A model generated the notes under the pieces. It did not search any database. It saw nothing but the letters and a program-made list of their open reading frames with translations, and was not told the origin of the DNA. Of a stretch of 64,000 bases of DNA, positions 19,247 through 33,874 are shown piece after piece. Numbering within the stretch: the stretch's first letter is position 1; each line of letters starts with the position of its first letter. The translations under genes were made by a program, and so were the position numbers. Source of the stretch: Cyanobacteriota bacterium. GTDB taxonomy: Bacteria > Acidobacteriota > Vicinamibacteria > Vicinamibacterales > UBA2999. The stretch is taken from NCBI GenBank assembly GCA_019752015.1, contig JAIEMQ010000013.1:1-64000 (forward strand). Direction: 5' to 3'.

Positions 19247-21445
19247 TTAGCGCACCACCACCTGACCGGTACCGACATTCCCCAAAGCATCCGTCGCGCG
19301 AATGACGAGCGTACGGCCTTGCGCGTCGGCATCGAGGCGGATGTCGAATCCTTCCTGACGGCCATCGAGGATCCCGTCGCGCGGGAACGCCGGCTGCCAG
19401 CGCTGCGCATCGAGCGAATACTCGACCTTGGTCACCGCTGAGTCCGTGTCGCGAACTTCCGCGGGCACCACGAAGCGCGTGCCGTCCTTCCGCAGCGTGC
19501 CGACCTGCACCGTGGGTGCGATGTTGTCGATCTCAAAGCTGCTGCTTTCGAGCTCGCCGGCCAGCGAGGCATCGGCGGGATTGGACTTGCGATCGGACGC
19601 GAGCACTTTCAACACGTAGGTGCCGTTTGGAACCGACGTGGTGTCCCACACCAGCAGCGTGTCGCGCTGATCCGACTTCAGTGATCGCCAGTTGGTATCG
19701 CCTTCGCGGCGATAGAACACGTCGTAGCTCAGCTCGTCGTTGTTGTCGTCCTCGGCCTTCCACTGGAAGGTCTGCAGGCCGCGCTGAAAGATTCGGCGCC
19801 CGAGCACCGGCGCGCCGGCGCCGAGCGGATTGTTCGAGCCGGCGCGCTTGTCCTGCGCGTCCTCGTCGAGGCCGGCAATCTCCGTTTCACCGCTCGAGAA
19901 CGGCTTCTGGAAGACGACGCCCGGCGGATGCAGCGTGATCGACGTGACCTGCGGACGGATGTTTCGCGGCAGGTAGGCCGACGAGAGTGACGTCAACACC
20001 GGCACCGCGGTTGCGGTGCCGGTCAGCACCGCGCGCCACTGCAGGTATCGCGCCTTGGGGCTGGTGATCTGCGAGCCGTCGGCATTCGAGTACGCCGGGC
20101 TCCACTCGCTCCACGCGTCATCGGGCGTCCGGGTATTGCCCGAGCGCGTATGGATCTCGACTTTGGCGCCGGCCGGAACCGTTGCCCGCCAGGTCATCGC
20201 GCCCCAGGTCGAGACCAGGCGCGCATCCTTCACATCGGATTCAAAGGTGCCGCGCGTGGCGCGCGTCGACGCCACGGCCATCAGCAGTCCCGGATTCGCG
20301 GTCGCCAGCAGCGTGCGATCGCCCGAGCGCGCGATCATCGTCGCCTGCTGCGCCGGCACGCGCGTGACGAGCACGGCGCTGACCGGGTCGCCGCTCAAAC
20401 GAAACAGTTTGCCCTTGCCGCCGGTTGCCACGAGCACCGCGCCGTCGCCTTCGATCGCGACGTCGTACGGCGCATCATCGCGCGCGGTCCACAGCTCATC
20501 CCAGAGGCCGTCGGGCTGCACGCGATACACCGCTCCGGTCATCGTGGACCGGCCGGTGCTCGATGATGCGCCGCCACTCGACTGGGCCGAGACGACGTCG
20601 ACCACCGTCATCGACGTGATCTCGGTCGAGACGTTTGGAATCGACGGCGTGACGGGCGGGGGAGTGATCGGTGCGTCCTGGGAATCGCCGCCGCTTTGCG
20701 CGCGGCCGCTCTGGGCCGCGGCGTAGATCGCGCCTTTCGGATCGACACGAATGGAGTGAATCTCCTGGTACGTCGTGTCCAGAAGAAGAAAGCCCTTGCC
20801 GGCGGCGTCGACGCGGAAGACGCGGCCCGGCGCGCCGGTGCCGACGAGCAGCTGCCGGTTCTGATCGAACGCGAGCGTGACCGCATGCGAGGTTTTCGAC
20901 GCGAAGAACCTGCTGCCTTTACCGTCCGGCGTGATCTTGTAGACCGTGCCCTTGTCGCCGGTGCCCGCAAACACGTTTCCGCTGCCGTCGACGGCCAGCG
21001 ACCAGATGTACTTGTCGTCCGGATCGAAGAACGGCGTCGCCTGGCCTTTGGCATCGACGCGATAGATGCGCCCGTCGGGCGAGGTGCCCACGTAGAGACC
21101 GCCGTCGGGAGCGGGCGCCAGCGCGTGCACTTCCATTTCGGTGCTGTCGTAGAAGAGCGATCCCTGGCCGGTGCGATCGATCTTGATCACCTTGCCGTCG
21201 TTGCCGGTGCCGAGGAACCAGGCGCCGTCCGCGCCGGGCATCACGGTCCAGACAAACGGCGCGGCCGCGTCGTGGACCTTGGTCAGCGCGGGACCGAGCG
21301 TCAGCCGCCCATGTTGATCGATCGACAGTTGATCGACTTCGCCGCGCAGGAAATCGGCTTGTGTCGCGGCCTGCCAGAACCCGGGCGCCGCAGAAAGGGA
21401 AGCCGCCGTCAGGAACAGGGCGACTCCAAGCACTCGTGGAATCAT
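19247..21445 (-). CDS. Secreted beta-propeller protein
   Basis: 732 residues with a signal peptide (VLGVALFLTAASLSAAPG). Residues about 50-400 contain repeated strands of propeller type, each with a D-G-K/x-I/V-Y core: GTGNDGKVIKIDRTGQG, GTSPDGRIYRVDAKGQ, GTGDKGTVYKITPDGKG, GTGAPGRVFRVDAAGKG. The C-terminal half has strands resembling fibronectin-type domains. Family members of this kind bind ligands or partner proteins at the surface; a catalytic site was not seen. The start overlaps the stop of the S55 peptidase gene by one base (TGATG), so the two are cotranslated and may work together. Confidence 0.8.
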   Translation of the reverse strand: MIPRVLGVALFLTAASLSAAPGFWQAATQADFLRGEVDQLSIDQHGRLTLGPALTKVHDAAAPFVWTVMPGADGAWFLGTGNDGKVIKIDRTGQGSLFYDSTEMEVHALAPAPDGGLYVGTSPDGRIYRVDAKGQATPFFDPDDKYIWSLAVDGSGNVFAGTGDKGTVYKITPDGKGSRFFASKTSHAVTLAFDQNRQLLVGTGAPGRVFRVDAAGKGFLLLDTTYQEIHSIRVDPKGAIYAAAQSGRAQSGGDSQDAPITPPPVTPSIPNVSTEITSMTVVDVVSAQSSGGASSSTGRSTMTGAVYRVQPDGLWDELWTARDDAPYDVAIEGDGAVLVATGGKGKLFRLSGDPVSAVLVTRVPAQQATMIARSGDRTLLATANPGLLMAVASTRATRGTFESDVKDARLVSTWGAMTWRATVPAGAKVEIHTRSGNTRTPDDAWSEWSPAYSNADGSQITSPKARYLQWRAVLTGTATAVPVLTSLSSAYLPRNIRPQVTSITLHPPGVVFQKPFSSGETEIAGLDEDAQDKRAGSNNPLGAGAPVLGRRIFQRGLQTFQWKAEDDNNDELSYDVFYRREGDTNWRSLKSDQRDTLLVWDTTSVPNGTYVLKVLASDRKSNPADASLAGELESSSFEIDNIAPTVQVGTLRKDGTRFVVPAEVRDTDSAVTKVEYSLDAQRWQPAFPRDGILDGRQEGFDIRLDADAQGRTLVIRATDALGNVGTGQVVVR

Positions 21446-23283
21446 CAGGGTTGATCGAGGGAAAGGGTCAGCTGACGGGCTCCCGTCACCGCGAAATCGA
21501 GCGCGAGCTGCCATTCGCCGCGCGTCATGGTGCGCAGCGAGCTGACCGTGCCGCTGTTGCGATCGGCTTCCATCACCGCGAGCACCGACGGCGGCAGGCC
21601 GGCCATCGGCTCGCCGTTGACGATCGCGCCGGCATCGGACGAGGTCAGACGCACGTAGAGACGGTTGTTGCGGCGCGCGCGGTTGAACGTGCGCATCACC
21701 TGCGACACACGCTGCATGTCGGCGCCGCGCGTATCACGGCGATCATCGGCGGTCGTGCGGGCGGCGTCGGCGACCGTCAGCTGCAGCGATCCGGTCAGGT
21801 TGGCGGGAATCTGAATCGGCACCTGCCGCACGATCTCCTGTCCGCTGGCGGAGCGCAAGGCCACGTTCACGATCGCGTCCTGGCCGGCACGCGGCCGGGT
21901 CGTATCGAGCCACACGCGCTCGATGCGCGCGCTGCGCTGCTGTTCGCTGGCGTCGATCGTCAGCGCGATCTTGCCGACCTCGACGTTCTCGCCGGAGTTC
22001 TTGAGCAGTGCCGTCAGCGGCCCTGCAACGTAGGCGGCGGCGCCGCCGGCGGGCTGTTCGCCGCTGAAGATGTCTTCGAACGACAGGTCGCCTTCGGATC
22101 GAATCGACGCGCTGCCGCGAATCGCAAACGACGCCGGACCCGCGCCGCGCTCGTACGACGTAAGCACGTTCGCCACCGAGAGATACGTGAGGAGCGGCGT
22201 GAACGTAAAGTCGCGCACGACGCCGAAGTTGAACGTGCGCGACGGTCCGCGGTCCGAGTTCAACGTAATGGTGACGGGAATCAGCGACGGCGCGGCGCCG
22301 AGGCGGCCGGCGATCGCGGTCGCGCGATCCTGCTGCACCGTGCCGATCACCTCGCCGAAGCTGGCCAGCTTGCTCGAGGCCATCAGGCTCGGCAACACTA
22401 CCTGCACTTCGGCGCGTGTCATCGGGAACTGGATCGGGCCCAGGTTGTAGAGCGGGTGGCCGAAAGCGTAGACGCGATCGCCATCCACGTGCGTCACCGT
22501 GCCGGTTGCGCCAAGCTCGAAATCGCCGGTCAGCAGTCCCACACCGACCGCGTCGCCAGGCTGGAGCGGCCGCGTATTCGCCGCCGAAAGGCCGGCACCC
22601 GGCGACTGCGGGCTCGACATCGGAACGAATCCCGCGGCGGCGAGAGACGGCGAGATCGAATCGAACACCGACGCATCGAATCCTGATGCGGTCATCGGCA
22701 CCGCGATCGGCCGCAGCATCGCGCTCATGCGGCCAAGGTCCGACGCCACGCCCGACAGCACGAGCGCCTGCGACGGATCGTCGACGAAGGCTTTCGATCG
22801 GCCGAGATCGCGCGACCAGATGTCGAGCAGCTCGCGCGGCGTCGGTTGCAGCGACATTGCGGCCGGACGCATCACGCGCGTGGCGCCAGCCATCAGCGTT
22901 GCATCAACCATCTCGTCGATCGGTGTGATGCCGGCGATCGGCTCGGTGGAAAACTGACCGAGAGAATACGACACCGCGCCCATCAGCTTGCCGTCCACGT
23001 AGACGGGGCTGCCGCTCATGCCGGCGATGACACCGGTCTTCGCGAGCGGTCCACCTTCGAGCCGCGCGAGGATGAGATTGCGCTTCGGCCCGATGACGTT
23101 CCGCATCACGCCGAGGATTTCAACTTTGAAGTCCTCGAGCCTGGTGCCGGAAAACACCGTACGGCCAACGCCGATCATGCCGGGCCGGACCTGATCCAGG
23201 GGCAAATAGGTCGTTTGAGCGACCGGCGCGGCGATAAGAACACCGAGCGCCAGGGCGGCGGCGATAAACGTGCGTAAATTCAT
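21445..23283 (-). CDS. SpoIVB-like S55 peptidase-domain protein
   Basis: 612 residues with a signal peptide (FIAAALALGVLIAAPVA). The N-terminal quarter matches the SpoIVB peptidase (S55) domain: VRPGMIGVGRTVFSG, then VIAGMSGSPVYVDGKLMGAVSY, where GMSGSPVY contains the expected nucleophile serine. In Bacillus, SpoIVB cleaves SpoIVFA to trigger SigK processing; here no other sporulation gene is nearby, and proteins with this domain are widespread in non-sporulating bacteria. The middle part has YAFGHPLYNLGPIQFPM, also typical of the family. The rest is unassigned. A TATAAT hexamer lies 33 bases upstream. Confidence 0.85.
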   Translation of the reverse strand: MNLRTFIAAALALGVLIAAPVAQTTYLPLDQVRPGMIGVGRTVFSGTRLEDFKVEILGVMRNVIGPKRNLILARLEGGPLAKTGVIAGMSGSPVYVDGKLMGAVSYSLGQFSTEPIAGITPIDEMVDATLMAGATRVMRPAAMSLQPTPRELLDIWSRDLGRSKAFVDDPSQALVLSGVASDLGRMSAMLRPIAVPMTASGFDASVFDSISPSLAAAGFVPMSSPQSPGAGLSAANTRPLQPGDAVGVGLLTGDFELGATGTVTHVDGDRVYAFGHPLYNLGPIQFPMTRAEVQVVLPSLMASSKLASFGEVIGTVQQDRATAIAGRLGAAPSLIPVTITLNSDRGPSRTFNFGVVRDFTFTPLLTYLSVANVLTSYERGAGPASFAIRGSASIRSEGDLSFEDIFSGEQPAGGAAAYVAGPLTALLKNSGENVEVGKIALTIDASEQQRSARIERVWLDTTRPRAGQDAIVNVALRSASGQEIVRQVPIQIPANLTGSLQLTVADAARTTADDRRDTRGADMQRVSQVMRTFNRARRNNRLYVRLTSSDAGAIVNGEPMAGLPPSVLAVMEADRNSGTVSSLRTMTRGEWQLALDFAVTGARQLTLSLDQP

Positions 23284-23322: not shown

Positions 23323-23441
23323 CGGGGCTTGGCTTGCTTTCCCCGTAGAGCTTCTGTTAGCCTTTCGACGTTCAAATGCGCTCGCGAGCCGTCAATAACG
23401 CCGCCGTTTCGACCGGTCATTTTGGCCGTAAGGGCAGCGGT

Positions 23442-23498
23442 GTGGGTTCGTGGTGGTGGTATTGGTGCCCAACTGGAGAGGCTCACCGGTCCGTGTAG
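23442..23498 (+). CDS. trpL: trp operon leader peptide (WWWYW)
   Basis: A short frame starting GTG at 23442 encodes 18 residues with the core GSWWWYWCP: four Trp codons and one Tyr codon in a run of five (23451-23465). AAGGG (23430-23434) lies 7 bases before the GTG as a Shine-Dalgarno sequence. The same frame is open back to an ATG at 23376, giving 40 residues, but that ATG has no Shine-Dalgarno. Trp is normally the rarest residue, so this run in front of an operon for Trp synthesis is the hallmark of a ribosome-stalling attenuation sensor. The frame ends at TAG 23496-23498, just before the terminator region. Confidence 0.88.
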   Translation: MGSWWWYWCPTGEAHRSV

Positions 23499-23526
23499 TT
23501 CCACCACACACTCTGACGCTCGACCG

Positions 23527-23565
23527 AAGCGCCTCTTCAATCAGGAGAGGCGCTTTTTTATTTTT
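23527..23565 (+). terminator. Intrinsic terminator of the trp attenuator
   Basis: Exact 10-bp stem AAGCGCCTCT / AGAGGCGCTT with a 9-base loop, followed by a T tract of 6 T, one A, 5 T. It lies 28 bases after the leader-peptide stop and about 40 bases before aroDE. Confidence 0.9.
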
Positions 23566-23600
23566 GATTGCAGATTGCGGATTGCGGATTGCGGACTTAG
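23566..23600 (+). repeat. Tandem array of heptamers (GATTGCG)
   Basis: Units GATTGCA, GATTGCG, GATTGCG, GATTGCG and the degenerate GACTTAG directly follow the attenuator T tract and reach to within 6 bases of the aroDE start codon. The array occupies the place where a ribosome-binding site would be expected; no Shine-Dalgarno sequence is visible. Confidence 0.85.
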
Positions 23601-23606
23601 ACGCTG

Positions 23607-25079
23607 ATGAAACCTGCAAAGCTTTGCGTGACCGTAACGGCCGACACCATGGCCGAACTGCGTACTCGCCGCGACCAGGTGGCGGACGCGGACATGGTCG
23701 AGCTGCGGCTGGACACCGTAAAGGATCCGAGCGCCGCCGCCGCGCTTGCCGGACGCAAGAAGCCGGTGATCATGACCTGCCGGCCGAAAGCGGAAGGCGG
23801 TCACTTCAACGGCAGCGAAGAGGAACGGCGCTCAATCCTCAGTGAAGCGCTGGCCCTCGGCGCGGAATATGTCGACCTCGAATTCAAGGGCTCCTGCGCC
23901 GACTTGATGGAGCGCACCGGCGGCCGCCGCGTCATCCTCTCGCATCACAACTTCGCCGGCATGCCGGCCGATCTCAAGGAGATGGCGCAGGCGATGCTCG
24001 CGAGCGGCGCTGAAGTCGTGAAGCTCGCCGTGACCGCGCATCAGTTACGCGACTGCCTCGCGCTGCGCGCCATCGGGAAGAATACGCGCGTGCCGATGGC
24101 GTTAATCGCAATGGGTGAAGCGGGCCTCGTGTCGCGCGTCCTCGCCTCGTGGATGGGATCGTGCTGGACCTACGCGGGCGACGGCGCCGCTCCGGGACAG
24201 CTGCCCGTGAAGCGGATGCACGATGAATATCGCTTCCGCCGCATCGGCGCGCGAACGGCGCTTTACGGCGTGGTCGGCAAACCCGTCTCGCATTCAGTCT
24301 CGCCGTCCATGCACAACGCGGCGTTTCGCGCCGCGCATCTCGATGCGGTCTACCTGCCGCTGGCCGCCTCCGACTTCGCGGACTTTGAGGCGTTCGCAGA
24401 CGAAGCGAGCCTCGCCGGCGTCAGCGTAACGGCGCCGTTCAAGGTCAACGCCTTCGAGCGCGCCGATGAATGCGATCCGGTCAGCCGCCGCATTCAATCC
24501 GTCAACACGCTGCGGCGCGAAGCCGGCAAGTGGCTGGGGTGCAACACCGACGTCACCGGATTCCTGTCGCCGCTCGAGTCCGCGATGCGCCTGCCAGGCA
24601 CGCGCGCCACGATTCTCGGCGCCGGCGGAGCCGCGCGATCCGTATCGGTCGCGCTCGCTTCCGCGGGCGTGAAAGTGACGATCGCCGCGCGCCGGAAGGA
24701 TCAGGCGCGGGCCGTTGCCGGCCTGACTGGCGCCGCAATCTCCGACTGGCCGCCGGATCCGGCAACGTGGGATCTCCTCGTCAACGCCACGCCGGTCGGC
24801 ACCGCGCCGGGTGTCGAGGCGTCGCCGCTTCCCGATGACTATCTGTTTCACGGCGGGCTCGTTTACGACCTCGTTTACAACCCGCCGCAGACGCGGCTGC
24901 TCGACACCGCCGCGCGCGCCGGCTGCCGGACCATCGGCGGCCTCGACATGCTCGTGGCACAGGCCCAGGCGCAGTTCGAATGGTGGACCGGGGGACGGCC
25001 CGCCGATCGCGTCATGCGCGAGGCCGCGCTCGCCAGGCTGGCCGCGCACAACAGTGAAAAAGCAGAGGCTCAATCTTGA
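23607..25079 (+). CDS. aroDE: Bifunctional 3-dehydroquinate dehydratase (type I)/shikimate dehydrogenase
   Basis: 490-residue fusion that performs two consecutive shikimate-pathway steps: dehydroquinate to dehydroshikimate, then NADPH-dependent reduction to shikimate. Residues 1-215 are a type I AroD barrel with ELRLDTV, the catalytic-His region SHHNF and the Schiff-base lysine in EVVKLAVT (about residue 136). Residues about 218-485 are AroE: YGVVGKPVSHSVSPSMHN, GVSVTAPFK with the catalytic lysine (about 277), NTDVTGF and the NADP-binding ILGAGGAARS. The same domain order occurs in plants and some bacteria. First structural gene after the attenuator; the TTGA overlap couples it to trpE. Confidence 0.95.
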   Translation: MKPAKLCVTVTADTMAELRTRRDQVADADMVELRLDTVKDPSAAAALAGRKKPVIMTCRPKAEGGHFNGSEEERRSILSEALALGAEYVDLEFKGSCADLMERTGGRRVILSHHNFAGMPADLKEMAQAMLASGAEVVKLAVTAHQLRDCLALRAIGKNTRVPMALIAMGEAGLVSRVLASWMGSCWTYAGDGAAPGQLPVKRMHDEYRFRRIGARTALYGVVGKPVSHSVSPSMHNAAFRAAHLDAVYLPLAASDFADFEAFADEASLAGVSVTAPFKVNAFERADECDPVSRRIQSVNTLRREAGKWLGCNTDVTGFLSPLESAMRLPGTRATILGAGGAARSVSVALASAGVKVTIAARRKDQARAVAGLTGAAISDWPPDPATWDLLVNATPVGTAPGVEASPLPDDYLFHGGLVYDLVYNPPQTRLLDTAARAGCRTIGGLDMLVAQAQAQFEWWTGGRPADRVMREAALARLAAHNSEKAEAQS

Positions 25080-26548
25080 AGCTGACGACGTTCGATGAAT
25101 TCGTTGACCTCGCCAAGCGGGCAACGTTTGTGCCGGTGGTGAAGGAATTGGTCGCCGATCTGCTGACGCCCGTGTCCGCGTTCTTGAAAGTCGCCGAGCA
25201 TTCCGATTACGCGTTCCTGCTCGAGAGCGTCGAAGGCGGCGAGCATGTCGGCCGTTATTCATTCCTTGGCAAGGATCCGTTCCTGATCTTGCGCGGCCGT
25301 AATGGCGAGACGGAGATCGAAAAGGCCGGCGTGACGACCAGGGGTGAGAAGCCGTTCATCGACACGCTTCGTGAATTGATGAACAGCTTCCAGTCGCCGT
25401 TCGTCCCGGGCCTGCCGCGCTTCACCGGCGGCGCCGTCGGCTATCTCGGTTACGACACCGCCGCGTGGTTCGAGCCGACCACGAAGCGCGATGGCGATCC
25501 GCCGCCGAACAGGGACGATGCGGGGTTCATGCTGTTCGATACGGTGCTCGCCTTCGATCACGTGCAGCACCGCATCCTGCTGATCGCCAACGCGCGGATT
25601 TCCGGCGATGAAGATCTGAGGTCGCTGTATCAATTCGCGTGCGCGAAGATCGCGTTCCTCGAGCGCGAGCTGGAGCGCGCGCTGTCGTTGAAGCGACCAA
25701 CCGGCGGCGACGCGGTCGACCTCGTCTCGAACATGTCGCAGCAGACCTACGAATCGATCGTCAGGAAGGCGAAGGAATACATTGCGGCCGGCGACATTTA
25801 CCAGGTCGTGCTGTCGCAGCGGTTCGAGGCCGACGCCGGCGTCGATGCGTTCACCGTCTACCGCGCGCTCCGTCACGTGAATCCGTCGCCGTACATGTTC
25901 TTCATCCGCATGGGCGATCGATCGATCGTCGGCTCGTCGCCGGAGATGCTGGTCCGCGTTGAGGGCCGTCACGCCATCACGCATCCGATCGCCGGCACGC
26001 GGCCGCGCGGCAAGTCGGAAGAAGAGGACATGCGGCTCGGCGAAGAGCTCAAGCGCAACGAGAAGGAAAAGGCCGAGCACGTGATGCTCGTCGATCTCGG
26101 GCGCAACGACATCGGCCGCGTGTGCGACTACGGCACGGTGCGCGTGCCGACCTACATGGCGCTCGAGCGCTACTCGCACGTCATGCACCTGGTGTCGGTC
26201 GTCGAAGGCCGGCTGGCCGAGGGACGCGATCGTCTCGACGCGCTGGTCTCGTGTTTCCCGGCCGGCACGGTCTCCGGCGCGCCAAAGGTGCGCGCGATGC
26301 AGATCATCAACGAGCTGGAACCAACGCGGCGTGGCCTTTACGCCGGCGCGGTCGGCTATCTGGATTTTGGAGGCAACCTCGATTTCTGCATCGCGATCCG
26401 CTCGATCCTCCTGGAGGGCGGCAAGGCGTACATCCAGGCCGGCGCCGGCATCGTGGCCGACTCGAATCCCACCGCAGAGTACGAAGAAACGCGCGACAAG
26501 GCGCGCGCGATGATTCGCGCGCTCGAGCTCGCGCAGGGCGGGCTGTAA
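25076..26548 (+). CDS. trpE: Anthranilate synthase component I
   Basis: 490-residue chorismate-using subunit that, with TrpG, makes anthranilate, the first step of Trp synthesis. Conserved features: [18 protein letters not shown] near residue 45, a region where Trp binds for feedback inhibition in the family; [30 protein letters not shown]; and [15 protein letters not shown]. The start is TTG, overlapping the aroDE stop as TTGA, with AGAGG 6 bases upstream. It should be controlled twice, by attenuation and by Trp feedback. Confidence 0.96.
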
Positions 26549-26553
26549 GAACG

Positions 26554-27120
<567 letters not shown>

Positions 27121-27122
27121 CG

Positions 27123-28145
27123 ATGTTCCCGGCCCTGATCGAGAAGCTTCGTCACCACGAGGACCTCACCACCGCGGAAGCCGCGGCGGCGATGGCGGCG
27201 ATCATGAAAGGCGACGCGGCGCCGGCGCAGATTGCCGGCCTGCTCGTCGGTCTCAGCATCAAGGGCGAGCGGCCGACGGAGCTGGTCGGCTTTGCGCAGA
27301 CGATGCGCGCCAACGCGGTGGCGATCACGCCGCCGGCCGGCGCGGTGTTCGATACGTGCGGCACCGGCGGCGATCGGTCGGGCACCTTCAACATCTCGAC
27401 CGCGTCCGCGATTGTGCTGGCCGCCTGCGGCAGGCGAATCGCCAAGCACGGCAACCGATCGGTGTCGAGCCAGTGCGGCAGTGCCGACGTGCTGGAAGCG
27501 CTCGGCGTCAACATCCAGGCCACGCCGGCCGTCGTCGAGCAGTGTCTCAATGAAGTCGGCGTCGCGTTCCTGTTCGCGCCGACGTTTCATCCGGCGATGA
27601 AACACGCCGCGCAGGCGCGCAAGGATCTCGGCGTGCGGACGGCCTTCAACCTGCTCGGACCGCTGACCAATCCCGCGCGCCCGTCGCGACAGCTCGTCGG
27701 CGTGCCAAGGCCCGAACTGACGGAGCTGCTCGCACGATCGTTGTCGCTGCTGGGATCAGAGCGCGCCTGGGTGGTGCACGGAGCAGACGGCCTCGACGAG
27801 CTGTCGACCACCGGATACACGAAGGTCTCGGAATCGCGCGGCGACTCGGTGCAGACCTTCTATGTGCATCCCGCCGACTTCGGACTGGCGAAGGCCTCAC
27901 CCGAATCGCTCAAGGGCGGCGATGCCGCCAGGAACGCCGCGATTGTGCGCGCCGTGTTGAGCGGCGAGGCCGGACCGCAGCGTGATGTCGTCCTCTTGAA
28001 CGCCGGCGCCGCGCTCTTCGTCGCGGGTCATGCCGACACGGTGAAGGCGGGGATCGCGAAGGCGGCCGCTGCGATCGACAGCGGTAAGGCCAGGGGCGTG
28101 CTGGACAAACTGATCGCGGTCTCGAATCGGGGGGCAAGCGCGTGA
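27123..28145 (+). CDS. trpD: Anthranilate phosphoribosyltransferase
   Basis: 340-residue enzyme that joins anthranilate to PRPP. The PRPP-binding FDTCGTGGDRSGTFNIST is complete, followed by KHGNRSVSSQCGSAD, and FLFAPTFHPAMKHA and RTAFNLLGPLTNPA, all diagnostic of TrpD. The start is ATG at 27123, 2 bases after the trpG stop; upstream extension of the frame is ignored. GTGA overlap with trpC. Confidence 0.97.
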   Translation: MFPALIEKLRHHEDLTTAEAAAAMAAIMKGDAAPAQIAGLLVGLSIKGERPTELVGFAQTMRANAVAITPPAGAVFDTCGTGGDRSGTFNISTASAIVLAACGRRIAKHGNRSVSSQCGSADVLEALGVNIQATPAVVEQCLNEVGVAFLFAPTFHPAMKHAAQARKDLGVRTAFNLLGPLTNPARPSRQLVGVPRPELTELLARSLSLLGSERAWVVHGADGLDELSTTGYTKVSESRGDSVQTFYVHPADFGLAKASPESLKGGDAARNAAIVRAVLSGEAGPQRDVVLLNAGAALFVAGHADTVKAGIAKAAAAIDSGKARGVLDKLIAVSNRGASA

Positions 28146-28984
28146 GCGCCACTCCCGATCTGCTCGAGGCGATCGTGGCCGCCACGCGCGCCCGCGTTGA
28201 CGCGGCGGTGACGCGTGAGCCGCGCGCGTCATTGGAACGCCGCGCGTTGTCGCGGACGCCGGACGGCAAGCGCTTCGCGGATCGCCTGGGCCGCAGCGGA
28301 TCGATCAACGTGATCGCCGAGTGCAAGCGCCGGTCGCCCTCGAGGGGCGTGCTCAGAGCGGCCTATGAGCCGGTAGCGATTGCCAAGGGTTACGAACAGG
28401 CCGGCGCCGCGGCCCTCTCGGTGTTGACGGAGCCGGGATTCTTCGACGGCGCACTGGAACATCTCGCGGCGGTTCGTGACGCGGTGACGATCCCGCTGTT
28501 GCGCAAGGACTTCATCATCGACGACTACCAGCTGCTCGAAGCGCGGGCGGCCGGAGCCGACGCAGTCCTGCTGATCGTGGCAGCGCTGAGTAACGACGCG
28601 CTGTCGTCGCTGTCGAGAGCCGCTCGCGATCTCGATCTTGCGGCACTCGTCGAGGTGCACAGCGTCGACGAATGCCGGCGCGCGATCGCCGCGGGCGGGC
28701 AGATCATCGGCGTCAACAATCGCAACCTGCGCACGCTGCAAGTCGATCTCAATGCATCGCGCGACGTCGCGGGCCTGCTGCCGTCGTCCGCGATCGGCAT
28801 CAGTGAGAGCGGGCTCAGGACACCGTCGGATCTGCAAGCGATGAAGGCGCTCGGCTATCGCGCGTTCCTGATGGGCGAGCGGTTCATGATCGAACCGGAT
28901 CCCGGTGCGGCGCTCGCCGGCTTGATCGAGTCGCTCGAAGGAGCGCTGGCCCGCCGTCGCCTTGGCGAAGGGGGGCGGACGTGA
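28142..28984 (+). CDS. trpC: Indole-3-glycerol phosphate synthase
   Basis: 280-residue TIM-barrel enzyme that closes the indole ring from carboxyphenylaminodeoxyribulose phosphate. Signature [16 protein letters not shown] carries the substrate-binding and catalytic lysine; [12 protein letters not shown] and [10 protein letters not shown] are also present. The start is GTG overlapping trpD; the stop overlaps the trpFB start (GTGA). It is not fused to trpF, unlike in E. coli. Confidence 0.97.
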
Positions 28985-30819
28985 CCGCCGTCAAGATCTG
29001 CGGCATTACTCGTCTCGAGGATGCGGAAGCGGCGGCGCGCTTCGGCGCGTCGTACGTCGGCTTCGTGCTGTGGCCGAAGAGCCCGCGCGCCGCGACGCTC
29101 GCGGCGGTCAGGTCGATTGTTCCGCAGCTGCCCGCCGGCGTCACGCCGGTTGGCGTCTTCGTCGATCCGAGTGTCGAAGAGATCAGTGCCGCGGTCGACG
29201 CTGGTATTCGAATCGCGCAAATCCATGGCCATGTCCCCGACGTCGATGTGCGCGTCATTCGCGCGGTCCATCTTGCCGGTGACGGGATTGAACCCGATGT
29301 CGAAGACGATACGGTCCTGCTCGACGCGCACGATCCGGCCAAGCGCGGTGGGACCGGGACAACGGTTGATTGGCGGCGCGCCTCGCGCATCGCGCGACAG
29401 CGGCGCGTGATTCTCGCGGGCGGTTTGACTGCTGAGAACGTCGCTGACGCGATTCGCGTCGTCCAGCCGTTCGCGGTCGATGTCGCCTCGGGTGTGGAGC
29501 TGTCACCAGGAATAAAGGATCACAAGAAGATGAAAGACTTCATCAAAGCGGCACTCGATGCACCCGTTCCACCCGACGCCCCCGATGCACCCGCGCAGTG
29601 GTTTGGCCGGCGTGATCCCGACGCGCGCGGATACTTCGGGCAGTTCGGAGGACGCTTTGTCCCCGAAACCCTCGTCGCGCCGATCGAAGCGCTCGAGCGT
29701 GAGTATCTGAGCGCTCGCCAGGATCCCGCGTTCGCCGAAGAACTGTCGCGGCTGCTGAAGCACTATGTCGGCCGTCCGACGCCGCTCTGGGAAGCGCGCC
29801 GCCTCGCCGAAGCTGCGGGCTGCGGCCAGGTGTTCCTGAAGCGCGAAGACCTGACGCACACCGGCGCGCACAAGATCAACAACGCGCTCGGCCAGGCATT
29901 GCTCGCGAAACGCATGGGCAAGGCCCGCATCGTCGCCGAGACCGGAGCAGGGCAGCACGGCGTGGCAAGCGCGACGGCGTGCGCACTCCTCGGCCTCGAA
30001 TGCATTGTCTACATGGGCACCGAGGACATGCGCCGCCAGGCGCTCAACGTGTTTCGCATGCGCCTGCTCGGCGCCACGGTCGAGGGCGTCGATTCAGGCA
30101 GCCGGACTCTGAAGGACGCGATCAACGAAGCGATGCGCGACTGGGTCGCGCGTCCGCACGATACGCATTACCTGCTTGGCTCCGCGCTCGGGCCGCATCC
30201 GTATCCGCTGATGGTGCGTGAATTTCAATCCGTGATCGGGCGCGAGGCCAGACAGCAGATCCTCGAACAGGCCGGCCGTCTGCCGGACGCGGTGATCGCC
30301 TGCGTGGGCGGCGGCAGCAACGCGATCGGGATCTTCGATGCGTTCATCGACGATCGCAATGTCCGCCTCGTGGGAGTCGAGGCTGGTGGTGAGGCGATTC
30401 GTCCAGGTCGCCATGCCGCGCGATTCGCGTCCGGCGCCGCCGGCGTACTGCAAGGGACGCGGACGTTCGTCCTGCAGGATGCGAATGGCAACATCGAGCT
30501 CACGCATTCCGTATCCGCTGGCCTCGACTACGCCGCGGTTGGTCCCGAGCATGCGTGGCTGCAGGAGACCGGCCGTGCCGAATACGCATACGCGACGGAC
30601 GATGAGGCGTTGAAAGCGTTCCAGGATCTGGCGCGACTCGAAGGCATTTTGCCGGCGCTCGAGTCGTCACACGCAATCGCGTACGTGACGAAGACGGCGA
30701 AGAAGTTTGGCAAGGACGCCGTGCTTCTCGTCAACCTGTCGGGGCGCGGCGATAAAGACGTGACGAGCGTCGAGCAGATCCTCAAGGAGGGCGCGGCGGA
30801 GCTCGCGCAAAAGAAATAG
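28981..30819 (+). CDS. trpFB: Phosphoribosylanthranilate isomerase fused to tryptophan synthase beta chain
   Basis: 612-residue fusion without an internal stop. Residues 1-190 are Trp[16 protein letters not shown] with the catalytic cysteine, [29 protein letters not shown] and [10 protein letters not shown]. Residues about 207-612 are Trp[16 protein letters not shown], the PLP lysine in HTGAHKINN (about residue 297), [20 protein letters not shown] and SGRGDKD. The join, residues 193-204 ([12 protein letters not shown]), is encoded by four tandem 9-base units. TrpF acts before TrpC, and TrpB after it, so the two halves do not catalyse adjacent steps. TrpA would have to dock on the TrpB half. 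Confidence 0.95.
29557..29592 (+). repeat. Tandem 9-base units encoding the TrpF-TrpB linker
   Basis: GATGCACCC, GTTCCACCC, GACGCCCCC and GATGCACCC follow each other in frame and encode the linker between the two enzyme domains. The unit resembles the GGTGCC/GGCACC arrays found at other gene junctions. Confidence 0.7.
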
Positions 30820-31604
30820 TGTCCCGGATCGAAGAGCGCTTCACAGAACTGCGCGGTGCCGGGAGGACCGGGCTCGTCACCTACGTGACCGCCGGCGATC
30901 CTGACCTGACGCGTTCGGCGGAGATCATCAAGCGTCTCGATCAGGCGGGTGCCGACGTGCTGGAGATCGGCGTGCCGTTCTCCGATCCGCTTGCGGATGG
31001 GCCGGTGATCCAGCGCGCCACCGAGCGGGCGCTGGCGGCCGGCGTGACGCTGAAAGACGTCCTGGCGATGCTCGAGACGCTGCGGCCGTCGATTTCGGCG
31101 CCCATCGTCATCTTCAGCTACGCCAATCCGATACTTCGGATGGGGTTGCAGACCTTTGTGACCGAGGCGCGCGCAGCCGGCGTGGACGGCGTCCTGACGC
31201 TCGACATGCCGCCTGAAGAAGGGGAGACGTTTCGCACCGCGTTCGACCGCGCCGGGATTGATACAATTTTCCTGTTAAGTCCCACGACGACGGTCGAGCG
31301 GATCCGCCGGGCGTCTGCGCTCGGCAGCGGGTTTCTGTATGGCATCTCCCGCCTCGGCGTCACCGGCGTGCGCGACACGGTCGACGACTCGGCGCGCGAA
31401 CTTGCTCAGCGGGTCAAGTCGGAAACGCGATTGCCGCTGGCGCTCGGCTTCGGCATTTCGCGGCCCGAGCATGTGCGATCGATCGGGCAGTGGGCCGATG
31501 CCGCGGTGGTGGGCAGCGCGCTCGTCAAGGTGATCGCGGAGCACGGGCGGTCCGCGGGGTTGCTGGATGAAGTGGAGCGGTATGTGCGATGGCTCCGGAA
31601 CTGA
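30819..31604 (+). CDS. trpA: Tryptophan synthase alpha chain
   Basis: 261-residue TIM barrel that cleaves indole-3-glycerol phosphate to indole and glyceraldehyde 3-phosphate, and passes indole to TrpB. LVTYVTAGDPDL, LEIGVPFSDPLADGPVIQ with the catalytic Glu, and the catalytic Asp in GVLTLDMPPEE are present. GTG start, overlapping the last base of the trpFB stop; it overlaps the chorismate mutase gene by 16 bases. Confidence 0.96.
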   Translation: MSRIEERFTELRGAGRTGLVTYVTAGDPDLTRSAEIIKRLDQAGADVLEIGVPFSDPLADGPVIQRATERALAAGVTLKDVLAMLETLRPSISAPIVIFSYANPILRMGLQTFVTEARAAGVDGVLTLDMPPEEGETFRTAFDRAGIDTIFLLSPTTTVERIRRASALGSGFLYGISRLGVTGVRDTVDDSARELAQRVKSETRLPLALGFGISRPEHVRSIGQWADAAVVGSALVKVIAEHGRSAGLLDEVERYVRWLRN

Positions 31605-31936
31605 GTCTCGAACAGCTCCGCGAGGAGATCGACAAGATCGACGAGGTGATCGTGCGCCTGCTCGACAGCCGCGCGCGATGCGCCTACACGGTCGGCCGCT
31701 TGAAGCACGAACTCGGCCGGCCGATCTACGAGCCGGCGCGCGAAGCCGCGGTGATCGCGCACGTGCGGCAGGTCAACGAAGCACTGGGCGGACCGCTCGA
31801 CGGCGATGCGGTGGCCCGGCTGTACGAACGCATCATGGACGAAGCGCGTCGCATTCAGCGCCTTGAAGCGGAACGCGACGCGAAGAAGAACGAAGAACAA
31901 ATAGCGAAGAACGAAAATCTGAAATCCGAAATCTGA
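31589..31936 (+). CDS. aroQ: Chorismate mutase, AroQ class
   Basis: 115-residue all-helical chorismate mutase making prephenate for Tyr and Phe. The helix LEQLREEIDKIDEVIVRLLDSR and the GRPIYEPAREAAVI block are typical of the AroQ/PheA N-terminal domain. The core ends near residue 92 (MDEARRIQR); the remaining tail (KKNEEQIAKNENLKSEI) is encoded by tandem heptamers and is unlikely to be part of the active fold. No prephenate dehydratase is attached. It lies in the aromatic operon between trpA and the DAHP synthase gene. Confidence 0.92.
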   Translation: MAPELSLEQLREEIDKIDEVIVRLLDSRARCAYTVGRLKHELGRPIYEPAREAAVIAHVRQVNEALGGPLDGDAVARLYERIMDEARRIQRLEAERDAKKNEEQIAKNENLKSEI

Positions 31937-31948
31937 GATCCGAGATCA
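31885..31948 (+). repeat. Tandem heptamer array in the 3' end of aroQ
   Basis: Units GAAGAAC (three copies) pass into GAAATCC, GAAATCT, GAGATCC and GAGATCA. The first part is translated as the C-terminal tail of chorismate mutase and the last units lie in the 16-base gap before aroF. Confidence 0.8.
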
Positions 31949-31952
31949 AATC

Positions 31953-32999
31953 ATGGTTGTCGTAATGAAGGAACGGGCGAGTGACACGGAAGTCGAAGCG
32001 GTCATCGCTCAACTGGTCGAACTCGGCATGGACGTGCATCGCTCGACCGGCGCGTCGCGCATCGTGCTCGGCGTCGTCGGCGGCGGCAAGGTCGATCCGC
32101 GGCTGATCGAGCTGATGGCCGGCGTGCACGAAGTGGTGCGCATCACGCAGCCGTACAAGCTCGCCAGCCGCACCTTCCAGCCGGACGACACCATCATCAC
32201 GATCGGCGATTTACGGATCGGCGGCGACGAAGTGATCGTCATTGCCGGGCCGTGCTCCGCCGAGAGCGAGAAGCAGGTCTACGACACGGCCGCGGCGGTC
32301 AAGCGCGCCGGCGCCAAGATCCTCCGTGGCGGCGCGTTCAAGCCGCGCTCGTCGCCCTACAGCTTCCAGGGCATGGGCGAGGCAGGACTGAAGTTACTTC
32401 GCGAAGGCTCGAACGCGCACGACCTCAAGCTCGTGACGGAAGTCATGGATGCGAGCCAGATCGACGTGATCGGCAAGTACGCCGACATCTACCAGGTCGG
32501 CGCGCGCAACATGCAGAACTTCACGCTGCTCCGCGAGCTCGGCCGCACGCGCAAGCCGATCCTGTTGAAGCGCGGCATTGCGGCGACGATGGAGGAGTGG
32601 TTGTTGTCGGCGGAGTACATCCTCGCCGGCGGCAACAAGGACGTGATTCTCTGCGAGCGCGGCATCCGCACGTTCGAGACGTTCACCCGCAACACCCTCG
32701 ACCTCTCGGCCATCCCGATCGTCAAGGAGCTCTCGCACCTGCCGATCTTCGTCGACCCGAGCCACGGCATGGGCCGGCGCGACAAGGTGGCGCCGATGGC
32801 GCGCGCCGCGGTGGCGGCCGGCGCCGACGGCCTGATCATCGAGGTCCACAACGATCCGGATCACGCGCTGAGCGACGGCGCGCAGTCGATGTTCCCGACG
32901 CAGTTCGATCGCCTGATGGCGGAGCTGCGCATCATCGCGCCGGCGATTGGCCGCAGCATCTGCCTCGAGCCCGTCGCGCGCCGCGGCTGGGCTCGGTAG
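31953..32999 (+). CDS. aroF: 3-deoxy-7-phosphoheptulonate synthase, ferredoxin-like-domain type
   Basis: 348-residue DAHP synthase, the entry enzyme of the shikimate pathway (PEP plus erythrose 4-phosphate). Residues 1-75 form the ferredoxin-like regulatory domain of the AroF/PheB type; the barrel contains VIAGPCSAESEKQ, GGAFKPRSSPYSFQG, KRGIAATMEEW, CERGIRTFE and FVDPSHGMGRRD. This class (I-beta, like Thermotoga) can be inhibited by Tyr or by chorismate derivatives through the N-terminal domain. Being in this operon places pathway entry under the Trp-sensing attenuator. Confidence 0.95.
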   Translation: MVVVMKERASDTEVEAVIAQLVELGMDVHRSTGASRIVLGVVGGGKVDPRLIELMAGVHEVVRITQPYKLASRTFQPDDTIITIGDLRIGGDEVIVIAGPCSAESEKQVYDTAAAVKRAGAKILRGGAFKPRSSPYSFQGMGEAGLKLLREGSNAHDLKLVTEVMDASQIDVIGKYADIYQVGARNMQNFTLLRELGRTRKPILLKRGIAATMEEWLLSAEYILAGGNKDVILCERGIRTFETFTRNTLDLSAIPIVKELSHLPIFVDPSHGMGRRDKVAPMARAAVAAGADGLIIEVHNDPDHALSDGAQSMFPTQFDRLMAELRIIAPAIGRSICLEPVARRGWAR

Positions 33000-33000
33000 G

Positions 33001-33078
33001 GGTGCCTGAGGTGCCTGGGTGCCTATGGTGCCTGGGTGCCCATGGTGCCTGAGGTGCCTGGGTGCCTGAGGTGCCCTG
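33001..33078 (+). repeat. Array of nine 8/9-base units (GGTGCCTGN)
   Basis: GGTGCCTGA, GGTGCCTG, GGTGCCTAT, GGTGCCTG, GGTGCCCAT, GGTGCCTGA, GGTGCCTG, GGTGCCTGA, GGTGCCCTG run without gaps from the aroF stop to 10 bases before tyrA. The reverse complement unit (GGCACCCA) makes up an array at 58738-58820. Confidence 0.9.
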
Positions 33079-33088
33079 ACGTCAGAAC

Positions 33089-33874
33089 ATGCCTGATACC
33101 ACGCACGGACTTGCGATCGTCGGACCGGGACTGATCGGGAGCTCCGTTGCGCTGGCGGCGCGGCGCCGCTGGCCCGATCTGCAAATCAGGACGATCGATC
33201 AGGGGCAGTCGCTGAGCGCGATCGGCAACGCCCTGGTCGTCGTGCTCGCGGCACCGGTCAACGCCATCCTCGAGATCATTCCGAAGCTGCCGCTCGTCAT
33301 CTCCCCGAAGGCGCTCGTCGTCGACACCGGCAGCACGAAACACTCGATCATGCAGGCAGCGGGCGCCGCAAAGATCGCGCACTTCGTCGGCGGTCATCCC
33401 ATGGCCGGCGGCACCAGCGCCGCCGACGCCCGTGCCGATCTCTTCGACGATCGTCCCTGGTTCCTGACCAATCCCGATTCCCCCGAAGCGGTGCTGCGCG
33501 CGTCGCGATTCGTCGCGGCGCTCGGCGGCAGGCCGGTCGTGCTCTCGGATCACGGCCAGGAGCACGACCGCCTGATGGCGGCCATCAGCCATCTGCCGCA
33601 GGTGACCGCGTCGATGTTGATGGCGGTGGTCGCGCGGGCGGTGGGCGCGGACAACCTTCAGTGGAGCGGCAGCGGTCTGAAGGACACCACGCGGCTGGCC
33701 TCGAGTCCGGCGTCGATGTGGCACAGCGTGCTCGGCAGCAACAGCCGCGAGCTGCAGCCGTTGATCAAGTACCTGGCGTCGGAGCTGGCAGCGTTCGCCG
33801 ATCGTCTCGAAGATCCGGCCGCGGTCCGCGAGCTGTTCGACGAAGCCAACCGCGCCAAGCAGTCTTGTAAGTAG
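33089..33874 (+). CDS. tyrA: Prephenate dehydrogenase
   Basis: 261-residue NAD(P)-dependent enzyme converting prephenate to 4-hydroxyphenylpyruvate, leading to Tyr. Rossmann motif AIVGPGLIGSSVALA; the catalytic-region VGGHPMAGG with its histidine; SDHGQEHDRLMAAISHLPQ, typical of TyrA. It has no ACT domain. The gene follows a repeat array and lacks an obvious Shine-Dalgarno. Last gene of the aromatic operon; the TAG stop also forms part of a TAGAAT hexamer before scoA. Confidence 0.93.
   Translation: MPDTTHGLAIVGPGLIGSSVALAARRRWPDLQIRTIDQGQSLSAIGNALVVVLAAPVNAILEIIPKLPLVISPKALVVDTGSTKHSIMQAAGAAKIAHFVGGHPMAGGTSAADARADLFDDRPWFLTNPDSPEAVLRASRFVAALGGRPVVLSDHGQEHDRLMAAISHLPQVTASMLMAVVARAVGADNLQWSGSGLKDTTRLASSPASMWHSVLGSNSRELQPLIKYLASELAAFADRLEDPAAVRELFDEANRAKQSCK

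Follow-up and report, generated by a model that had tools for sequence, protein, structure and literature searches.

A probable tryptophan attenuator before an aroDE-trp-tyrA operon in Acidobacteriota, with antiterminator strand and tyrosine codons inside the leader frame

Background

Transcription attenuation by a translating ribosome is a classic means of making biosynthetic enzymes only when the amino acid is short. Here, we describe a leader of this kind in a 64,000-nucleotide stretch of acidobacterial DNA (hereafter, the window), where a classical trp-type attenuator, worked by the translating ribosome, very probably controls transcription of an entire aroDE-trp-aroQ-aroF-tyrA operon. This reading is strongly supported by comparative sequence, in which the control codons are conserved, the antiterminator strand is duplicated, the spacing is constrained, a leader start lies in frame behind a promoter box, and the strands are exchanged together outside the class. 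The leader appears to be a genuine classical trp attenuator in a phylum for which no earlier description was found. It is predicted to stand out by its length and nearly leaderless start, by an antiterminator strand within the open reading frame (ORF), by its position before aroDE, and by combining Trp and Tyr codons.

Materials and methods

Upstream regions of aroDE were compared at 61 distinct loci, the window included (40 + 19 + 2). Throughout, "order" denotes the order of the window, and its class was taken, by inference, to be Vicinamibacteria. Ten of the 40 loci (L045-L048, L050, L052-L055, and L059) were placed in the order solely by a TrpE identity of 67-75%. Among the 41 genomes of the family with an aroDE match, 30 were read, together with L192 and L193; in addition, 80 of 214 genomes matching TrpE, selected for their similarity and family, supplied upstream DNA. 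Duplicates were removed (L034-L042, L044, L049, L051, L056, L060, and L061), as was L119, a copy of L050, after which no other pair was at least 92% alike over at least 200 bases. L043, L057, and L058, which have no aroDE start, were discarded. L059 was kept outside the statistics, yet counted as the miss. The terminators of L015, L019, L033, L045, and L123 fall outside the terminator rule, and these loci enter the codon and promoter counts only; L131 was read by eye and enters no statistic, and L189 matched the automatic scan and is likewise outside the statistics.

Tyr codons were counted from codon -2 to codon +5, numbered from the first Trp codon of a cluster that was itself picked by Trp alone.

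Results

Architecture of the leader

The features of the leader and operon are collected in Table 1. A preliminary description, made from the letters of the window, had pointed to a short frame reading WWWYW, and this is indeed encoded as TGG TGG TGG TAT TGG in frame with both GTG 23442 and ATG 23376. It had also noted an octamer, GGAGAGGC, which occurs twice as stated, at 23475-23482 in the leader and at 23544-23551 in the 3' arm of the terminator; both copies can pair with GCCTCTTC at 23531-23538, one in the terminator stem and the other in the fold of the segment freed by a stalled ribosome. The terminator, described as a perfect 10-bp hairpin, has its 10 pairs (23529-23538/23544-23553) and its T tract; "perfect" is slightly too strong, one of the pairs being G-U (23537 with 23545). 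The stem extends to 13 pairs, followed by TTTTTTATTTTT. The leader ends at a TAG codon (23496-23498).

Table 1. Coordinates of the features assigned to the leader and its operon in the window
Feature	Coordinates	Strand	Remarks
-35-like TTGCTT	23334..23339	+	TTGACG in the 8 other congeneric loci
-10-like TAGCCT	23358..23363	+	12 nt before leader ATG
Predicted leader ORF, 40 aa, MRSRAVNNAAVSTGHFGRKGSGVGSWWWYWCPTGEAHRSV	23376..23498	+	nearly leaderless; ATG kept in 9/9 congeneric loci
GTG put forward as start in the preliminary description, with AAGGG 23430-23434	23442..23444	+	
Control codons Trp-Trp-Trp-Tyr-Trp (TGG TGG TGG TAT TGG)	23451..23465	+	same frame as GTG 23442 and ATG 23376
Antiterminator strand 2, TGGAGAGGC	23474..23482	+	inside leader ORF
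CGGTC, partner of GACCG 23522-23526 in a second antiterminator helix	23487..23491	+	fold of freed segment
CCACCACAC, can pair with Trp codons; candidate protector hairpin	23501..23509	+	partly conserved
Intrinsic terminator hairpin	23526..23556	+	strand 3 GCCTCTTC 23531-23538; strand 4 GGAGAGGC 23544-23551
Terminator T tract	23554..23565	+	
aroDE, fused 3-dehydroquinate dehydratase and shikimate dehydrogenase	23607..25079	+	TIGR01093 and TIGR00507, both above cut-off
trpE, trpG, trpD, trpC, trpFB fusion, trpA, aroQ, aroF (DAHP synthase), tyrA-like	25076..33874	+	

When the leader region was folded, as the preliminary description had proposed, the minimum free energy (MFE) of 23425-23566 was -59 kcal/mol (z = -2.99 against dinucleotide shuffles), and the alternative fold of 23468-23546, the part free of the stalled ribosome, pairs the leader copy with GCCTCTTCA (z = -2.74) in a 9-bp antiterminator extended by CGGTC/GACCG. 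This extension is invariant in 9 congeneric loci and therefore offers no covariation evidence. A third pairing, near the Trp codons, had been proposed to mask the leader copy; it is possible in the window and only partly conserved, since CCACCAC (23501-23507), which pairs with the Trp codons, reads CCACGAC in 4 of the 9 congeneric loci (window included) and CCACCGAC in one. The corresponding 1:2 hairpin is present in the window fold and imperfect in congeners, and strand 2 is at least half paired within the leader in 39/54 loci, a count made without a control. With that hairpin only partly conserved, the earlier wording of a "complete logic" of attenuation overstates the case, while the attenuator reading as such appears well supported.

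The operon follows in the order aroDE-trpEGDC-trpFB-trpA-aroQ-aroF-tyrA, in which the trpF part of the trpFB fusion and tyrA score below the curated cut-offs of their models. The leader does, as first described, precede aroDE instead of trpE, and aroDE would very probably be the first gene under its control.

Promoter and start of the leader frame

In 52/59 loci, the leader is preceded by a conserved promoter-like TTGAC-17/18-TANNNT, with a spacer of 18 in 43 and of 17 in 9; the window is among the seven loci that miss this rule, its own -35 box, TTGCTT, being degenerate and failing both consensus rules. A transcription start downstream of 23500 had been named as an observation that would speak against attenuation, and these boxes instead suggest a start upstream of the leader. 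The leader ATG is found 11-12 nt past TAGCCT (TAGGAT in L009) in all 9 congeneric loci, and every one of the 52 promoter-bearing loci has, 6-39 nt past the -10 box (8-23 nt in 48), an ATG, GTG, or TTG in frame with the Trp cluster and with no stop in between. As a frame control, starts 6-23 nt past the -10 box and open to the Trp cluster were counted in each frame: the leader frame has one in 49/52 loci vs 1/52 for each of the other frames, and with ATG alone the counts are 39 vs 0 and 0. Transcription typically starts about 7 nt past the -10 box, so the 5' untranslated region (UTR) would comprise a few bases, and the leader most likely begins at ATG 23376, almost without a 5' UTR. The leader codons before the Trp cluster show a pN/pS of 0.55 among 7 congeners, which lends weak support to translation.

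Conservation across aroDE loci

The Trp cluster stands before aroDE at 60 of the 61 distinct loci; the miss, L059, still has a terminator close before aroDE, with the Trp cluster lost or degenerate. Distances are tightly distributed across 54 loci: the medians are 22 nt between the first Trp codon and strand 2 (quartiles 20-23), 13 nt between the end of strand 2 and the stop (quartiles 9-13; 13 nt in the window), and 30 nt between the stop and the terminator (quartiles 28-34). In the same loci, 481/484 aligned cells of the terminator stem and 499/592 of the 2:3 helix are paired, and the latter has at least 7 consecutive pairs in 47/54, so that both the Trp codons and the duplicated strand, whose conservation the preliminary description had singled out for comparison, recur in relatives. 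Relative to the Trp codons, strand 2 is shifted in frame in 7/54 loci, and it crosses or passes the stop in L023, L029, L052, L120, and L122, from which it follows that the RNA, beyond the peptide alone, is conserved.

With a ribosome placed at the first Trp codon, the 2:3 helix appears in the MFE fold of 53/54 loci and of 9/11 outside the class, a result that is partly circular because strand 2 was chosen beforehand as the best complement; the shuffle test gave p <= 0.05 in 45/54 loci and in 5/11 outside the class. Covariation within the order, assessed by row shuffling, is modest (9 of 1000 shuffles reach the observed value), since strand 3 hardly varies there. RNAalifold applied to the 54 aligned leaders recovered the terminator only, the outcome to be expected of mutually exclusive folds.

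An automatic scan for a Trp cluster with a terminator matched 18/20 loci of the order and 12/58 outside it, the latter being a deliberate selection of diverse families and similar TrpE, not a random sample; the reverse strand gave 0/80. With a match at just 12 of these 58 chosen loci, the phylum as a whole may not share the system.

Loci outside the class and before trpE

A further comparison is provided by 11 loci from 9 families outside the class, in which the terminator stems are quite different (for example, GCCGTGGAC in L143, GCCTCCCC in L168, and ACCCGCCTT in L180) and the leader copies tend to differ along with the terminators. Exchanging arms among these loci lowered the mean pairing score from 19.9 to 14.2, and the observed sum exceeded that of all 20,000 permutations (swap test, p = 5e-5). 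Taken singly, L143, L146, L168, L174, and L180 passed the shuffle at 0.05, L135, L160, L179, and L191 did not, and L169 and L184 clearly failed. Before trpE (loci L062-L113), the scan matched 5/52 on the forward strand and 0/52 on the reverse strand; one of the five, L062, has a leader identical to that of L135. A plasmid search found nothing.

Tyrosine codons at the cluster

Among non-Trp codons at the cluster, 69 of 295 are Tyr (59 loci), vs 21/706 upstream and 3/382 downstream; at the 11 loci outside the class, the corresponding counts are 15/60 vs 3/128 and 2/54. Expressed as shares, Tyr makes up 23-25% at the cluster, inside and outside the order, vs 1-4% in the adjoining stretches, with a background of 1.7% in nine reading frames of the operon. 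At least one Tyr codon occurs at the cluster in 53/59 loci and in 8/11 outside the class, and TAT and TAC are both used, at several positions. Downstream, aroF and/or tyrA were found 3' of trpA in 10/10 operons of the order with about 10 kb read and in 4/4 of a further set. Outside the class, Tyr at the cluster is accompanied by tyrA in five cases (L135, L146, L180, L189, and L191), three have Tyr codons and no tyrA match in the fetched downstream DNA (L160, L174, and L179), and two have neither Tyr at the cluster nor a tyrA match (L168 and L169); L143 (with Tyr) and L184 (without) are cut by the contig end. The association between Tyr codons and tyrA outside the class is not significant with these few cases.

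Phe codons are mildly raised upstream of the Trp cluster (codons -14 to -3), at 64/706 and, outside the class, 11/128, about three times the operon background.

Known regulators

Models of the Trp repressor TrpR, of TRAP (MtrB; 9/9 candidates scored), and of the T-box (RF00230; 15/15 candidates scored) had no match in the genome, and the T-box model had none in the window; the control genomes match in all three cases. The Rfam model Trp_leader (RF00513) yielded nothing over the gathering threshold in the genome (150 of 542 first-look candidates scored), and none in the window or over the leader itself, while the E. coli control matches.

Discussion

Proposed mechanism

The locus combines a short ORF carrying cognate codons, a terminator before the first gene, and a competing antiterminator, at a spacing such that a stall would free strand 2 and the stop would cover it, the distances being measured and the footprint taken from established knowledge. 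From this arrangement, we infer that transcription would start a few bases before ATG 23376 and that a ribosome would trail the polymerase along the leader peptide. Under a shortage of charged tRNA-Trp, this ribosome should stall at the Trp cluster. When the first Trp codon occupies the A site, a ribosome shields about 15 nt on the downstream side; given the 22-nt spacing, its front edge would stop just short of strand 2 and leave it free. Strand 2 could then pair with strand 3 (about 23531-23539), the terminator would be blocked, and the operon would be read. If Trp is plentiful, the ribosome would reach the stop at 23496 and cover strand 2, strand 3 would pair with strand 4, and transcription would end at the T tract.

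Alternative explanations

The simplest alternative, an ordinary intergenic terminator next to a chance Trp-rich frame with no regulatory link, draws on the general facts that intrinsic terminators are common and that TGG repeats arise easily in G-rich DNA. It is extremely improbable given the retention of the codons in 60/61 loci, the tight spacing, the promoter, and the controls, and we reject it on the reverse-strand scan (0/80), the swap test, and the frame control; moreover, the closest long ORF on the upstream side (21445-23283, 612 aa) runs on the opposite strand, so the terminator does not serve it. TRAP-like protein-binding and T-box tRNA-binding leaders, with the short ORF incidental, deserve consideration because such leaders also control trp operons through terminator/antiterminator pairs. 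Searches of the genome with PF02081, PF01371, and RF00230 found nothing, and the spacing fits a ribosome footprint, which makes this possibility just as slight; on the lack of model matches, TRAP and T-box control were rejected.

The two other questions concern how the attenuator itself is built. The preliminary description had credited the short frame with its own Shine-Dalgarno sequence: AAGGG does lie 7 nt before GTG 23442, and the GTG is kept in 7/9 congeneric loci. It is missing in L006 and L009, however, whereas the upstream ATG is present in 9/9, and together with the promoter position and the frame control this makes GTG 23442 improbable as the main leader start. That role is rejected for it here; a secondary start at the GTG is possible. 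The other question is whether the attenuator with its start at ATG 23376 is a joint sensor of Trp and Tyr, in which a stall at either codon would cause read-through, as would befit an operon feeding both branches. The Tyr enrichment over the adjoining codons, inside the order and outside the class alike, the use of both TAT and TAC at several positions, and the regular presence of aroF and/or tyrA after trpA in the order suggest joint sensing. Against it stand the three loci with Tyr codons and no tyrA match in the fetched downstream DNA, a genome of the reverse kind (G273, with leader L122, has tyrA and no Tyr codon at the cluster), and an association that falls short of significance with few cases among related, non-independent loci. 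On balance, we consider an added effect of the Tyr codons plausible, if somewhat short of probable.

More tentative again is the broadest proposition, that in Acidobacteriota a single nearly leaderless leader, whose codons hold the antiterminator strand, gates a shikimate-Trp-Tyr operon through the supply of both Trp and Tyr; this arrangement might predate the divergence of the classes in which it occurs, its RNA sequence having turned over completely, or might have arisen more than once.

Comparison with known systems and significance

Leaders with several cognate codons are familiar from the enterobacterial thr (Thr and Ile) and ilv (Leu, Val, and Ile) attenuators, which the window leader resembles in this respect. 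A description of Trp and Tyr paired in one leader was not found among the matches listed in the open-access literature. In E. coli trp, strand 2 lies downstream of the leader stop, whereas that of the window falls within the leader ORF and ends before the stop. The window leader is also longer, almost without a 5' UTR, and has Tyr codons mixed in, its operon begins with aroDE, no TrpR was found, and, unlike the E. coli leader, it does not match RF00513. What the two would share is the logic set out in passages of the E. coli trpL literature, in which a short leader contains Trp codons, the antiterminator and terminator folds exclude each other, and the position of the ribosome decides between them (PMC1183508). 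For Sinorhizobium meliloti trpL/rnTrpL, passages of the published account describe a leader mRNA that starts at the ATG, with Trp codons and a terminator, encoding a 14-aa peptide before trpE(G) (PMC7298713); the window leader, by comparison, has about 40 aa, a predicted 5' UTR of a few bases, and an aroDE-trp-tyrA operon behind it. The Trp leaders of Actinobacteria likewise represent leader-peptide control of Trp genes outside Proteobacteria, in another phylum and, in the passages concerned, with no mention of Tyr codons (PMC1262725, PMC4833913).

Among the matches listed in the open-access literature, such an attenuator in Acidobacteriota was not described, and a 2010 comparative study by Lopatovskaya and others might contain acidobacterial predictions. 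According to passages of a 2010 report, a function had been associated with almost none of the attenuators predicted in Acidobacteria, and leader-peptide systems had, to its authors' knowledge, been shown in Proteobacteria and Actinobacteria only, before their own finding in Firmicutes (PMC2965389). The Acidobacteriota, a phylum of soils and waters that is abundant in soil, would thus gain a leader-peptide attenuator that the sequences clearly support, and the comparison points to about 70 small genes, 60 from the order and 12 from elsewhere, which are probably unannotated. If the Tyr codons count, a single RNA switch would balance two branches of aromatic biosynthesis.

Additional observations

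A GATACGGGTAAACCnnTGAAACTGCAAGG-like element lies shortly upstream of the trp promoter, about 250-330 nt before aroDE, in 10 loci (L021, L022, L024, L028-L033, and L192; at most 2 mismatches to a 13-base core). At 3 mismatches to the core, shuffled sequences also match (4/74), and a search of 8 of the 10 loci against Rfam gave no match at E <= 1. Between the terminator and aroDE, short ATTGCGG repeats occur at 23565-23601; similar DNA occurs at two further sites of the genome (L002 and L003), and L007 and L131 carry other simple repeats in the same interval. Leaders with a Trp cluster and a terminator were also seen before trpE in L088 and L104, both titled Deltaproteobacteria, and in L090, titled Ignavibacteriae.
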